The translations under genes were made by a program, and so were the position numbers. DNA of 54,719 bases, from contig JAFEBN010000002.1 in NCBI GenBank assembly GCA_018242645.1, forward strand, positions 1 through 54,719, in the 5' to 3' direction. This DNA is from Planctomycetota bacterium (GTDB lineage Bacteria; Planctomycetota; Phycisphaerae; Phycisphaerales; UBA1924). The first letter of the stretch is position 1. Each line of letters starts with the position of its first letter. Positions 2,569 through 54,719 of this stretch are shown one piece after another. The notes beneath the pieces were generated by a model that ran no database searches, had not been told where the DNA came from, and worked only from the letters and a program-made list of their open reading frames with translations.

Positions 2569-5058
2569 ATGACTCCAAGCGGAATCGGATTCGGCATTCT
2601 CGGCATCGTCGGCGTGATCCTCGCGGTGGCCATCGCCGTGCTGCTGATCACGCATCTACTCGTGCCGCTGTTCCGCGGCATCGCGTGGGTCGTGGCGCGG
2701 ATCTTCCACTGGATCACCGGCACGCTGGCCGACCTGGTGCGGATGGTGGGCGCGATCCTGGCGATGATCCTCTTCGCCCCGCTGGTGCTGCTGAACATCA
2801 TCATCGGCCGCTGGTCGGCCTCGGCGCACTTTGCGAATTCGCTGAAGGCGGAACTGGGTATCGCGGGGGCGTGCCTTTATCGCGTGTGCCTGGGTCACCC
2901 GGCGCGGCTGGTGGGGATGGGGGGCCTGGTTGAGGGCATCGAGCAGCGGTTCCCGGCGGCGGTGGCGCAGGCGCCCACGGCCGATGCGCCCAAGGGGGGC
3001 AAGTCGGGGCGCGTCGGGCAGTTTGAGGGATACAAGATCGTCGGGTCTCTTCCGACGGGCGGCTCGGGTTCGAAGCTCTACATCGCCGAGCCCGACCCGA
3101 TCAAGCGTGCGGCGCTGGAGCGGTCGGGCTTCCGCGATGTCGACCAGGTGGTGATCAAGAACTTCCCCGTGGACGACGGTTCGAACCTGCCGAACATCGT
3201 CCGCGAGTCGCGGGCGCTGGAAGCGGCGAAGAAGCTTGGGCTGGTGCTGGATCACGAGCTCAGCCCGGCGAAGTTCTATTACGTGATGCGGTATGTGCCG
3301 GGTCAGACGCTCAATGTGGTGATCCAGCAGATGCACGCCCAGAGCGATCCGAGCCTGCAGGGCCTGGATGACCGCAATCTGCGGGGCACGCTGGGCTACG
3401 TGGCGGATCTGGTTTCGACGCTGGAGCAGTATCACCGGGGCGGGCTCTGGCATAAGGATGTGAAGCCGGAGAACATCATCGTCGAGCAGCTCCGGGGTGT
3501 GCCGCGGGCTCACCTGGTCGACTTTGGGCTGGTGACTCCTCTGCGGAGCGCGATGACGCTGACGACGCACGGCACCGAGTACTTCCGCGATCCGGAGCTG
3601 GTGCGGCTTGCGCTGCGGGGTGTGAAGGTTCAGGAGGTGGATGGGGCGAAGTTTGACGTATATGCCGCGGGCGCGGTGCTCTTTGCGGCGATGGAGAACA
3701 GCTTCCCGGCTCACGGCGTGCTGAGCCAGATGACGCGGCGTTGCCCGGACGCGGTTAAGTGGATCATCCGGCGGGCGATGACGGACTACGACAAGCGGTA
3801 CGCCTCGGCGGCGCAGATGCTGGCGGATCTTGAGGTCGTGCGTCAGGCGGCCGATCCGTTTGCGGTGAAGCCGATCGACCTGCCGAGCATGCGTGGCGGC
3901 GTGGCGGAAATGCCCCGGCAGGAGCAGGAAGCAGACGCACGCTTCGCGGCGTCTGCGACACCGGCTGCTGCGGCAAACGTTGCGGCCGAGTTTGCTTCGC
4001 CGGTCGGGCGTGCGGCCAGCGCCGGTGCAGCTCGGAAAGCGCGCCCGGATATCCGGCTGCTCAACTGGTGGACGGGCGAGCACGTTGTGGTGCCCGAAGC
4101 GCCGGCGGCGCCGGAGGCGGGTTCACCTGGAAGCAACTGGGACGCGATCGCGCGGGATCCGCTGGGTCGGGCCCAGGATGCGATGAACCGAGCTGTGGAT
4201 GCCGCGGAGCGTTCACCGAATGTGCATGTTCGTCGTGCGAGCGTGCACCTGCGCAGTGCGCGGGAGCAGGTCGAGACGGCGCGGGCACGCATCAAGGCGA
4301 AGCGGGAAGCGATTCGCACGCGCCGCGGGACGCTGAAAGGATCGGTGCCCGGCCACTATTCCAATAAGCCGGGGGCGGGGTCGGCGCTGACATCGCTCAT
4401 CGTCATCGGCGGCATCGTCTTTGTCCTGCTGATGGCGCGGAACGGATCCTCGAGTTCGACCCCGAGCGCCGCGGTTCGCATGTCGGCGCCCGAAGCGCCG
4501 GTTGCTCAGCGGGATGGCGCGATGGAGACCATCCGCTTTGCGTCGCAGGCCAGCGGCGAGAAGACAACGGCGAGCAAGTCGAGCCGCAAGTCGCGCAGCA
4601 GCACGAAGGCGGCGGAACCTGCCGCCCCCCCGGCGGCACCGATCAGCGCGAAGGCCTTGTTTGTCAGCGATTTCCCGGCGCCCTTGACGGCGGAGACGCG
4701 CACCCGGATCGAGTCGGTCGTGACGGGTCTGCGAGGCACGGGGATGGAACTCGCGGGCGATACGCCCGACGCCAAGGCTGAGGACACCGACACCGTGAAT
4801 CGGCTCGCGGAAGTGCGCGTCGCCGTTTCGGGCGTGGAAGTCGCTTCGCCGGAATTCCGCGATCGGCTGTCGCAGTGGCTGGCGGAGAAGGGGCTGGATC
4901 TGGTGATCTGGCTTCGTCCGCAGCTCGACAGCACGGGCAAGCCGGACACCGCCAAGCCCCCGGTTGCGTATGTGGTGGCCAACGCGGAGGCTTCGGACGA
5001 AATCCGGAACGCCGCCCGTGACGCGATCAAGTCGTCGGTTCGATCGAATAAGCCCTGA
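2569..5058 (+). CDS. Transmembrane serine/threonine protein kinase (Hanks type)
   Basis: The 829-residue protein is probably a membrane sensor kinase acting with the upstream sigma factor. Unusually, two or three hydrophobic segments come first (about residues 8-32, 34-52 and 58-80). The kinase domain then runs from about 150 to 425: a Gly-rich loop (GSLPTGGSGSKLY), VVIKNF with the ATP-binding lysine, the catalytic loop HKDVKPEN (H295-K296-D297, HKD in place of HRD) and DFG at 318-320. A long Ala/Arg-rich linker precedes a single membrane helix at about 605-624. A roughly 200-residue C-terminal region follows, with an alpha/beta-like fold predicted only by eye. GAGGTGA just upstream supports the ATG. 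Binding specificity of the external domain cannot be told from the sequence. Confidence 0.85.
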   Translation: MTPSGIGFGILGIVGVILAVAIAVLLITHLLVPLFRGIAWVVARIFHWITGTLADLVRMVGAILAMILFAPLVLLNIIIGRWSASAHFANSLKAELGIAGACLYRVCLGHPARLVGMGGLVEGIEQRFPAAVAQAPTADAPKGGKSGRVGQFEGYKIVGSLPTGGSGSKLYIAEPDPIKRAALERSGFRDVDQVVIKNFPVDDGSNLPNIVRESRALEAAKKLGLVLDHELSPAKFYYVMRYVPGQTLNVVIQQMHAQSDPSLQGLDDRNLRGTLGYVADLVSTLEQYHRGGLWHKDVKPENIIVEQLRGVPRAHLVDFGLVTPLRSAMTLTTHGTEYFRDPELVRLALRGVKVQEVDGAKFDVYAAGAVLFAAMENSFPAHGVLSQMTRRCPDAVKWIIRRAMTDYDKRYASAAQMLADLEVVRQAADPFAVKPIDLPSMRGGVAEMPRQEQEADARFAASATPAAAANVAAEFASPVGRAASAGAARKARPDIRLLNWWTGEHVVVPEAPAAPEAGSPGSNWDAIARDPLGRAQDAMNRAVDAAERSPNVHVRRASVHLRSAREQVETARARIKAKREAIRTRRGTLKGSVPGHYSNKPGAGSALTSLIVIGGIVFVLLMARNGSSSSTPSAAVRMSAPEAPVAQRDGAMETIRFASQASGEKTTASKSSRKSRSSTKAAEPAAPPAAPISAKALFVSDFPAPLTAETRTRIESVVTGLRGTGMELAGDTPDAKAEDTDTVNRLAEVRVAVSGVEVASPEFRDRLSQWLAEKGLDLVIWLRPQLDSTGKPDTAKPPVAYVVANAEASDEIRNAARDAIKSSVRSNKP

Positions 5059-53130: not shown

Positions 53131-53173
53131 GCCGCGGACCGCGAAGCTCAACGCCCGAAAATCTCGAGCAGCC

Positions 53174-53201
53174 AACGGTCGCGAATTCGCGGCCGTTTTT
53201 T
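53174..53201 (+). terminator. Rho-independent terminator of the atp cluster
   Basis: A 10-bp stem with one T-G pair (53174-53183 with 53188-53197, AACGGTCGCG/CGCGGCCGTT) has an AATT loop and a run of T. It ends the atp cluster right after atpH and overlaps the stop of the opposing peroxiredoxin gene. Confidence 0.9.
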
Positions 53202-53811
53202 ATTGCGTTTGCCGGGCCGTCGAGATCGGCAGCGACTTGAGCCAGGTCAGGACCACGGAAGCGTTCTGGTCCGGCGGAAAAACCGGGTACCAGACTTTGC
53301 GGATTACGCCGCCCTCGCAGTACCAGCTCATGCGTTTGATGAGCGTGGACGGGCCTCCGGCGGGGAGGCCATCGGAGATCGGGGGCATTTCCATCGTGGG
53401 CAGGCGCATCGCGCGGGTGAGAGCGAGATCGGAATCGCTGAGGAGTTCGAAGGTCAGGTGCGTGCGCTCGGCGAACTCGCGCTGGTAGTCGGTGGTTTGT
53501 GTGCTGATGCCGTAGATGGAAACGCCCAGCGCGGCGAATTCGGAAGCGAGATCGCGGTATGCGCAGGAGTGGGGCGTGCAGCCTCGGGCGCCGGGGACGA
53601 GATCCCAGCCGTCGGGCGGCGGGCGGCCGGGAACGCCCGAACGGGGGTAGAAGAAGAGGACTGATTTACCGTTAATTTCGGAGAGGATCTGAGGCGTGCC
53701 GCGGGTGCTGATGAGCGAGAGCGGCGGCAAGCGCATTCCGGTCAGGTGTGCGGTGGCGCCGTCGTCTTGCGGAGCGGGTAAGTCAGAGGGCAGTGTGGTC
53801 GGATCGTGCAT
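53200..53811 (-). CDS. Peroxiredoxin, BCP/PrxQ-like
   Basis: The 203-residue thiol peroxidase removes hydroperoxides. The thioredoxin-like core starts LPPLSLISTRG, then NGKSVLFFYPR. The active region is PGARGCTPHSCAYRDL, where the first Cys would be peroxidatic and the second, five residues on, resolving, as in PrxQ. A 13-residue insert (VPGRPPPDGWDLV) lies between YPR and that motif. SIYGISTQTTDYQREFAERT and FELLSDSDLALTRAM follow the family. No Shine-Dalgarno is visible before the ATG. It lies downstream of the GxxExxY unit and the aldehyde dehydrogenase on the same strand, so it was probably co-transcribed with the latter. Confidence 0.88.
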   Translation of the reverse strand: MHDPTTLPSDLPAPQDDGATAHLTGMRLPPLSLISTRGTPQILSEINGKSVLFFYPRSGVPGRPPPDGWDLVPGARGCTPHSCAYRDLASEFAALGVSIYGISTQTTDYQREFAERTHLTFELLSDSDLALTRAMRLPTMEMPPISDGLPAGGPSTLIKRMSWYCEGGVIRKVWYPVFPPDQNASVVLTWLKSLPISTARQTQ

Positions 53812-53822
53812 GGAAAGGCATT

Positions 53823-53856
53823 TTCACCACAGAGAACACAGAGATCACGGAGGGGA
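53823..53856 (+). repeat. Left arm of a perfect 34-bp inverted repeat
   Basis: The arm begins TTCACCACAGAGAACACAGA and ends CACGGAGGGGA. It matches 54265-54298 in reverse complement at every position, and the match stops exactly at both ends. Inside it are three 9-nt units (53826-53852) of the form A-N-CAC-R-GAG. On the minus strand it holds the last four codons of the GxxExxY gene, including the stop. Confidence 0.95.
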
Positions 53857-54258
53857 AATGTTGCTGATTCGGCGGGTGATCCCTTTGATCAATTGCGTGA
53901 CGTTGAAATTGATAAGCAGCCCGACCGGCAGATTTGCAAGACGGAGGTAGGTCATCAGTTGTGCTTCATGGATTGGGAGTACCCTGTCGACAGCCTTCAG
54001 CTCGATAATGACCAGGTCTTCAACAACGAGATCGATGCGGTAGCCGCTGTCGATAAGCTGCTCCTTGTAGCGAACTGGCAAATCGACTTGGCGTCGGACG
54101 GAGACTCCACGGGGCAACAGTTCATGCACGAGGCACGCTTCGTATGCGTTTTCCAGCAAGCCGGGGCCGAGGGTGCGATGCACTTCGATCGCCGCGCCGA
54201 TCACCTTGTCGGTGATCTTGTCGCAGCGTGACATCAGAGCCGGATCCGGTCTTTCCAT
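53845..54258 (-). CDS. GxxExxY family protein (PD-(D/E)XK nuclease-like)
   Basis: The 137-residue protein carries the family-naming motif in GPGLLENAYE (G33, E36, Y39). A core follows that looks like a PD-(D/E)XK nuclease: YRIDLVVEDLVIIELKAV, with D76, E86 and K88, and EAQLMTYLRL as the following helix. Function is unknown. The start is taken at the ATG at 54258 because GGAGG, located in the right inverted repeat, is 9 nt upstream; a TTG at 54264 is the alternative. The final residues SPP and the stop codon are encoded by the left inverted repeat, whose boundary falls exactly between codons. Confidence 0.88.
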   Translation of the reverse strand: MERPDPALMSRCDKITDKVIGAAIEVHRTLGPGLLENAYEACLVHELLPRGVSVRRQVDLPVRYKEQLIDSGYRIDLVVEDLVIIELKAVDRVLPIHEAQLMTYLRLANLPVGLLINFNVTQLIKGITRRISNISPP

Positions 54259-54264
54259 CCCCAA

Positions 54265-54298
54265 TCCCCTCCGTGATCTCTGTGTTCTCTGTGGTGAA
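54265..54298 (-). repeat. Right arm of the perfect 34-bp inverted repeat
   Basis: This is the reverse complement of 53823-53856 without mismatch. In the direction of the GxxExxY gene it is the whole visible 5' leader and supplies the Shine-Dalgarno GGAGG. Confidence 0.95.
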
Positions 54299-54306
54299 TT
54301 GTCTTT

Positions 54307-54719
54307 TCAGATGTCCACGTATGCCTTCAACCCCTGCACGCCGCCCTCGCGGCCGAAGCCGGATTCCTTGAATCCGCCGAAGGGGCTCGCCGGGTCGAAC
54401 TTGTTGTACGTGTTGCACCAGACGACGCCGCTTTTGATCTGCTTGGCGATCGAGAGCATCTTGGAGCCCTTCTCGGTCCAGATTCCCGCCGCGAGTCCGT
54501 ACGGCGTGTTGTTCGCGCGGCTCACGGCCTCTTCCGGCGTACGGAACGAAAGCACGCTCAGGACCGGTCCGAAGATTTCCTCGCGGGCGATCGTGTGGCT
54601 TGGCTGCACGCCGGTGAAGAAGCACGGGCGGCACCAGAAGCCCTTGCTCGGCAACCCGGCGCGTGTTGCCGCGACGGCGGCCTCTCCACTTGGCGCTTTG
54701 CCATTTGCCATTTGGCCAT
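54307..54719 (-). CDS. Aldehyde dehydrogenase, C-terminal part (runs off right edge)
   Basis: The visible roughly 137 residues are the C-terminal end of an NAD(P)-dependent aldehyde dehydrogenase. They include GFWCRPCFF, TIAREEIFGPVLSVLSFRT, ANNTPYGLAAGIW, SGVVWCNTYNKFDPASPFGG and FKESGFGREGG. This version (GFW with a Cys-rich strand, VVWCNTYNKFDPASP) resembles the full-length member of two-gene ALDH16-like enzymes, whose short partner would be the gene at 33930. The catalytic cysteine lies outside the window. An in-frame ATG at 54711 is internal, not the start. At the edge the coding DNA contains TTTGCCA in tandem. Confidence 0.85.
   Translation of the reverse strand, partial: GQMANGKAPSGEAAVAATRAGLPSKGFWCRPCFFTGVQPSHTIAREEIFGPVLSVLSFRTPEEAVSRANNTPYGLAAGIWTEKGSKMLSIAKQIKSGVVWCNTYNKFDPASPFGGFKESGFGREGGVQGLKAYVDI

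Follow-up and report, generated by a model that had tools for sequence, protein, structure and literature searches.

The closest described systems to the unit presented here are the REP/RAYT (TnpA-REP) 'REPtrons' and the REPINs (PMC2817692, PMC8266576, PMC3116915). As in those systems, a single enzyme gene is bordered on either side by a short repeat, the two copies being inverted. The genome holds many further copies of the repeat without a gene, often as inverted pairs and in intergenic DNA, and enzyme and repeat are linked in evolution, a link that is here statistical. The differences concern both partners. RAYT is an HUH/Y1 tyrosine enzyme, whereas the GxxExxY enzyme is of the PD-(D/E)XK type, RecB/Cas4-like by its motif and predicted fold. 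The REP is a palindrome with a GTAG-type head, whereas each arm of the GxxExxY unit is made of three tandem words of 7-8 nt, which vary widely among the paralogs of one genome. Membership in the REP/RAYT family was considered and rejected: only the PDDEXK_3/GxxExxY families match, and neither an HUH enzyme nor a palindromic repeat was found, which places the unit outside that family.

Other small elements share some of these features. MITEs and their parent insertion sequences also have terminal inverted repeats and give rise to internally deleted and arms-only derivatives, but the GxxExxY unit has no DDE transposase and no detectable target-site duplication, and the full unit measures about 470 bp. 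Among homing endonucleases, some have a PD-(D/E)XK fold, and these resemble the unit in being encoded by a small free-standing nuclease gene with occupied and empty sites; GxxExxY units, in contrast, are found at many unrelated intergenic sites and bring their own repeats as borders. The Rpn/YhgA-like PDDEXK proteins are a multi-copy PD-(D/E)XK family that others have linked to DNA transfer (PMC5350276). They have the multi-copy PD-(D/E)XK character in common with GxxExxY but form a separate family. In the open-access papers that were searched, the GxxExxY cassette appears to be undescribed.

The Unit in the Window

The window, i.e., the whole stretch of 54,719 nucleotides that was analysed, contains a 476-bp unit whose features are listed in Table 1. 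The initial annotation had described it as a perfect 34-nt inverted repeat tightly enclosing a GxxExxY gene, and this description holds. The arms are complementary at 34/34 positions with 408 nt in between, and the 30-nt core of the arm found 0 matches in shuffled windows. The coordinates agree with a gene that takes a putative ribosome-binding-like stretch from the right arm and its stop from the left arm, the TGA falling inside the latter. The gap of 19 bp between the aldehyde dehydrogenase (ALDH) and peroxiredoxin genes, obtained once the unit is taken out, was likewise confirmed. The annotation had missed the internal structure of the arm, in which three words follow one another (CACAGAG-aa-CACAGAG-at-CACGGAG).

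Table 1. Features of the GxxExxY unit and its surroundings in the window
Feature	Position	Strand	Remarks
Left arm (inverted terminal repeat)	53823..53856	+	outer TTCAC, three words, inner GGGA
Left-arm words	CACAGAG 53828-53834, CACAGAG 53837-53843, CACGGAG 53846-53852	+	
Right arm	54265..54298	-	exact reverse complement of left arm
Right-arm words	54293-54287, 54284-54278, 54275-54269	-	
GxxExxY / PDDEXK_3 gene, 137 aa	53845..54258	-	ATG 54258, TGA 53847-53845
Putative ribosome-binding-like GGAGGGG	54265..54271	-	in right arm, ahead of ATG 54258; predicted from the sequence
Downstream neighbour, peroxiredoxin-like (AhpC-TSA/Redoxin)	53200..53811	-	profile match; start at 53811
Upstream neighbour, aldehyde dehydrogenase (ALDH), C-terminal part	54307..54717	-	runs off the window; stop at 54307
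atpH-peroxiredoxin junction	53131..53199		unoccupied in the window; second GxxExxY unit here in G342

The expectation that the arm would recur in the genome was borne out in part. As an exact 34-mer it is confined to this one locus of the window genome, but further arrays of the same word class are present there. The comparison of the ALDH-peroxiredoxin junction among relatives, proposed as a way to find an empty site, had a similarly mixed outcome. In G342, a sister species of the same genus, the window unit occupies the same junction with 82% nucleotide identity (97% and 90% in the arms), the gene having diverged to an ordinary degree. The window copy is therefore an old resident, for which no recent movement is shown, and among the compared genomes no clean empty site was seen at this junction, which in G308 holds another ORF. 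G342 does possess, however, a second unit (L153, G342:C1, 880-1420) with the words CACAAAG/CACTGAG/CACAGAG; it separates atpH from the peroxiredoxin gene, a junction that in the window consists of intergenic sequence only. G348 and locus L019 likewise have a unit at this ALDH 3' end, with the words CGCGGAG and CGCCGAG, respectively, throughout, a shift that may reflect either concerted change or repeated insertion. Thus, an arm unique to this locus and a sister copy of ordinary divergence, both of which the annotation had held to speak against mobility, were found; they do not refute the idea when the comparison of arms is based on their words and is extended to further loci and genomes.

The GxxExxY Protein

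The assignment of the gene to GxxExxY proteins with a PD-(D/E)XK-like core agrees with matches of the window protein to TIGR04256 (E 9.5e-45, 151.7 bits, curated cut-off 35) and PF13366 PDDEXK_3 (E 1.4e-43, 148.4 bits, cut-off 22). In 40 sequences, G31, G33, E36, Y39, D76, E86-x-K88, and Q100xxxY104 (window numbering) are invariant. The residue set GxGxxExxY, D, ExK, and QxxxY is that of RecB/Cas4-like PD-(D/E)XK enzymes. The AlphaFold2 model of the protein has a pLDDT of 93, and its nearest solved fold by VIA-align is Cas4 SSO0001 (4ic1; Z 9.1, rmsd 3.6, 103 residues aligned), other PD-(D/E)XK enzymes scoring Z 5-8. Foldseek with this model found nothing that reached E 0.001, a search of solved structures by sequence gave no significant match, and PADLOC gave only weak Cas4 matches (E 0.006). 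The D..ExK..QxxxY motif, together with the predicted fold, suggests that the GxxExxY protein is a RecB/Cas4-like PD-(D/E)XK nuclease.

The gene is present in 139 of the 294 genomes of the window's phylum, and relatives on plasmids were found in 8 records only. In the open-access literature searched, no activity is described for any GxxExxY protein, and TIGR04256 and PF13366 are linked neither to flanking repeats nor to mobility. Outside bacteria, a GxxExxY protein is listed for the algal virus Chrysochromulina parva virus BQ1 (PMC12085832).

Arms and Words across the Family

Most of the 80 relatives located in genome contigs have inverted arms near the gene. When the flanking arms were counted, as the initial annotation had advised, they were indeed common, at about 61% of 112 GxxExxY genes: an inverted repeat with a score of at least 16 flanks 60.7% of them, compared with 0.21% of 1443 control placements elsewhere within the same loci, and about 40% are without recognisable arms at this threshold. 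A single word pattern detected two-sided arrays in 66/113 genes, and a word-agnostic pass over 144 unique elements found words in 100 of the 102 that bear arms. The general arm consists of an outer TTNAC followed by three copies of a word of 7-8 nt spaced by 1-3 nt; the GTAG head is absent from its outer consensus. The words recorded include CACAGAG, CACGGAG, CGCAGAG, CGCAAAG, CACCAAG, CGCCAAG, CATGAAG, CGCTTAA, CGCGAATG, CACAGATT, and ACAGGATT. The word varies from element to element and is alike inside one element. When each arm was scanned independently, without aligning the arms to each other, the spacer pair was identical in both arms of 53/55 elements, where 14 were expected by permutation. 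Seven loci had no match in Rfam at the gathering threshold.

Homology among related units breaks off at the arms. In 54 elements, whose ends are not exactly known, target-site duplications were no more frequent than random pairing would give, and scars can therefore not separate insertion from deletion. Most neighbouring genes could not be called for orientation; among the callable ones, units are co-oriented rather than opposed in 24 vs 6 cases upstream and 22 vs 9 downstream.

The words of the arms track the protein tree, not the host phylum. In pairs from different phyla, word distance correlates with protein identity at r -0.46, compared with -0.09 (sd 0.09) in within-phylum permutations, none of 2000 of which reached the observed value. 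On the protein tree, 51 full-word changes are needed vs 67 in within-phylum shuffles (0/300), and word position 5 requires 9 changes vs 17 when shuffled; these tree and permutation tests remove relatedness only partly. One protein clade, with words ending in AAG, covers several phyla. As far as sequence comparison goes, the results show that gene and arms travel together. The correlation between word and protein is a statistical one, in which joint inheritance is not separable from possible recognition of the word by the protein.

Gene-less and Deleted Copies

Arrays of the CACRGAG class were found in 68/294 genomes of the phylum, with up to 416 in a single genome and 0 for a reversed-pattern control; those of the CGCARAG class were found in 86/294 genomes, the corresponding control giving 0-3 per genome. 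For both word classes together the maximum is 541 arrays in one genome. Many of these dispersed arrays are short inverted pairs without a gene, and as single-stranded DNA such arms-only pairs are predicted to fold into strong hairpins (z about -7.4 and -8.0). Intermediate forms also occur: the GxxExxY gene between the arms is internally deleted at L134 and L143 and decayed at L149. A paper on Geobacter bemidjiensis reports direct repeats, 6-42 nt in length, that occur in multiple copies between genes; the repeat strings found here are not described in the open-access literature searched.

Genomes with excess arrays, i.e., those remaining after two arms per gene are subtracted, are enriched for the GxxExxY gene (odds ratio 4.8; counts 40, 12, 99, and 143), with a p of 2.6e-6 that is optimistic because related genomes are not independent; unsubtracted counts give odds ratios of 12 and 23. 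In 16 genomes with a known word class of the sampled unit, the ratio of the array classes tracks the class of the unit (p 0.003). Arrays occur in 12/294 genomes in which no GxxExxY gene was found. G051, G290, G291, G210, and G039 have 27-45 arrays and no GxxExxY gene found, which may be due to gene loss or to incomplete assembly.

Occupied and Empty Sites in Geothrix

Geothrix genomes contain several GxxExxY paralogs that differ from one another in their word. A word-blind search for arms-only pairs in 400 kb from each of two Geothrix genomes (800 kb) recovered pairs carrying CACGGAG, CACCAAG, CGCGAATG, AGCGGAG, CGCAGAG/CACAGAG, CACGAAG, and CGGAGAT. These are the words of GxxExxY units of the same genus, CGGAGAT having been assigned to the set from the flank of L210. 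For the CGCGAATG pair of G352, a gene with this word was found in G353 only, and the word match therefore holds at the level of the genus. Block shuffles of the same stretches gave 0 and 1 hits, and the leftover word-blind hits are mostly GC-rich coding repeats by appearance. Sequence comparison thus supports that dispersed arms-only pairs share their words with GxxExxY genes present in that genome or genus.

Several Geothrix junctions, whose genes were named by reading the translated flanks by eye, differ in occupancy. Between rpoB and rpoC, a unit is present in G352 (Geothrix fermentans) and only a short intergenic stretch in G353 (G. limicola), and a junction on G352:C12 is occupied in G352 and empty in both other Geothrix genomes. 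Neither empty site holds any array whatsoever, and the exact junctions are blurred since the species pairs are ~80-90% identical. The rpoB-rpoC unit of G352 is 82% identical in nucleotides to the ftsA-ftsZ units of G353 and G354, with the match stopping at the arms, and ftsA-ftsZ in G352 itself contains a remnant bearing arms. A further junction is filled by a full CGCGAATG unit in G353 but by an arms-only CACCAAG pair in the two remaining genomes. These comparisons support the view that gene and arms come and go together, as one unit, between related genomes.

Possible Mechanism and Alternatives

The proposal of the initial annotation that gene and ends form one mobile piece has gained weight from the arms that flank most genes across phyla, the presence and absence of units at junctions, the end of homology at the arms, and the arm words that track the protein tree and not the host phylum. 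By sequence and by analogy with REPtrons, the unit is probably a minimal mobile cassette in which a nuclease gene lies between inverted cognate repeats, with dependent gene-less pairs elsewhere. A cleavage and transposition chemistry can be inferred in outline. The GxxExxY nuclease would read its triplet of words, perhaps once the arms have paired into a hairpin, and would cut at the ends of the unit. Copies would enter intergenic sites and leave no detectable target-site duplication there, words would be held alike by conversion or selection, and the gene-less pairs would depend on the nuclease. A bolder reading, about which we are almost evenly divided and slightly on the doubting side, is that these units form a separate class of mobile DNA that extends across bacteria and into at least one archaeal MAG. 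Its sole enzyme would be a RecB/Cas4-like PD-(D/E)XK nuclease reading word triplets through an evolvable protein-word code. Several paralogs with different words would act side by side in one genome, each maintaining its own gene-less pairs.

The main rival to the mobile cassette is a homing-like spread between arrays, in which the nuclease cuts the chromosome at cognate arms-only arrays and the gene is copied into the break when a full unit serves for repair, by gene conversion between existing arrays and not by transposition into new sites. It would fit an ftsA-ftsZ junction that holds either the full unit or an arms-only version depending on the species, words that are alike within an element and shift together between elements at one junction, and the lack of detectable target-site duplications in the 54 elements. 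We regard it as unlikely because the empty rpoB-rpoC and G352:C12 sites are free of arrays, and arrays must therefore reach new sites too; the empty sites read are few, at about 80-90% identity, and have no evident common target sequence. Another possibility is that the words serve the host in a regulatory or housekeeping role, as sites for binding or as hairpins in transcripts, and that the nuclease gene is autoregulated through them and moves little. The overlap of the arms with the stop codon and the ribosome-binding-like stretch, the prevailing co-orientation with callable neighbours, and the persistence of a unit at the ALDH site across genera are what such arrays might show, but this account is made improbable by units that are present or absent at junctions, by the deleted copies, and by a copy number that ranges from 0 to hundreds.

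The arms might also be recognised by the enzyme of another element, GxxExxY being cargo or a gene of benefit to the host. Transposition activity is not known for GxxExxY proteins, and gene-less arrays in 12/294 genomes are compatible with an outside enzyme. Against this stand the word, which tracks the GxxExxY protein tree beyond the host phylum, the fit of arms-only words to the resident GxxExxY set, and the unit itself, which contains no second gene; we find the idea very improbable. It is hardly credible that the units are what decay has left of a MITE family or of an ordinary element with a DDE transposase. Their terminal inverted repeats and deleted derivatives do resemble MITEs, but the sole gene encodes an intact PD-(D/E)XK protein with invariant active-site residues, and the 54 elements gave no detectable target-site duplication.

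Units that, in many bacterial phyla, come and go between related genomes and leave gene-less ends behind point to a type of very small mobile DNA that the open-access papers searched do not describe. The cassette would provide a hypothetical role for the large and unstudied GxxExxY family and a possible origin for a class of intergenic repeats found in many bacteria. Should the nuclease indeed read its word, dozens of natural protein-word pairs would be available in an enzyme of 130 residues, which would be useful for studying the evolution of DNA recognition. If autonomous, a unit of about 470 bp would, compared with the sizes of insertion sequences, be among the smallest mobile elements known.

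Unusual Arms and Direct Repeats

Some elements have arms of another construction. In the Verrucomicrobia loci L183 (about 649) and L184 (about 1477), the arms are ACAACCGCTGCGCTAGAG-like and have no three tandem words. The arms of L064 and L070 are also ACAACCGCTGCGCTAGAG-like, and these two elements are 84% identical across two genomes. At L120 (about 1450-1900), the arms are apparently doubled, with inverted CATGAAG-type arrays on either side of the gene. The Saprospiraceae GxxExxY loci L078, L081, and L082 (about 3368-3890) represent one site followed by direct repeats, the copy number of which differs by genome.
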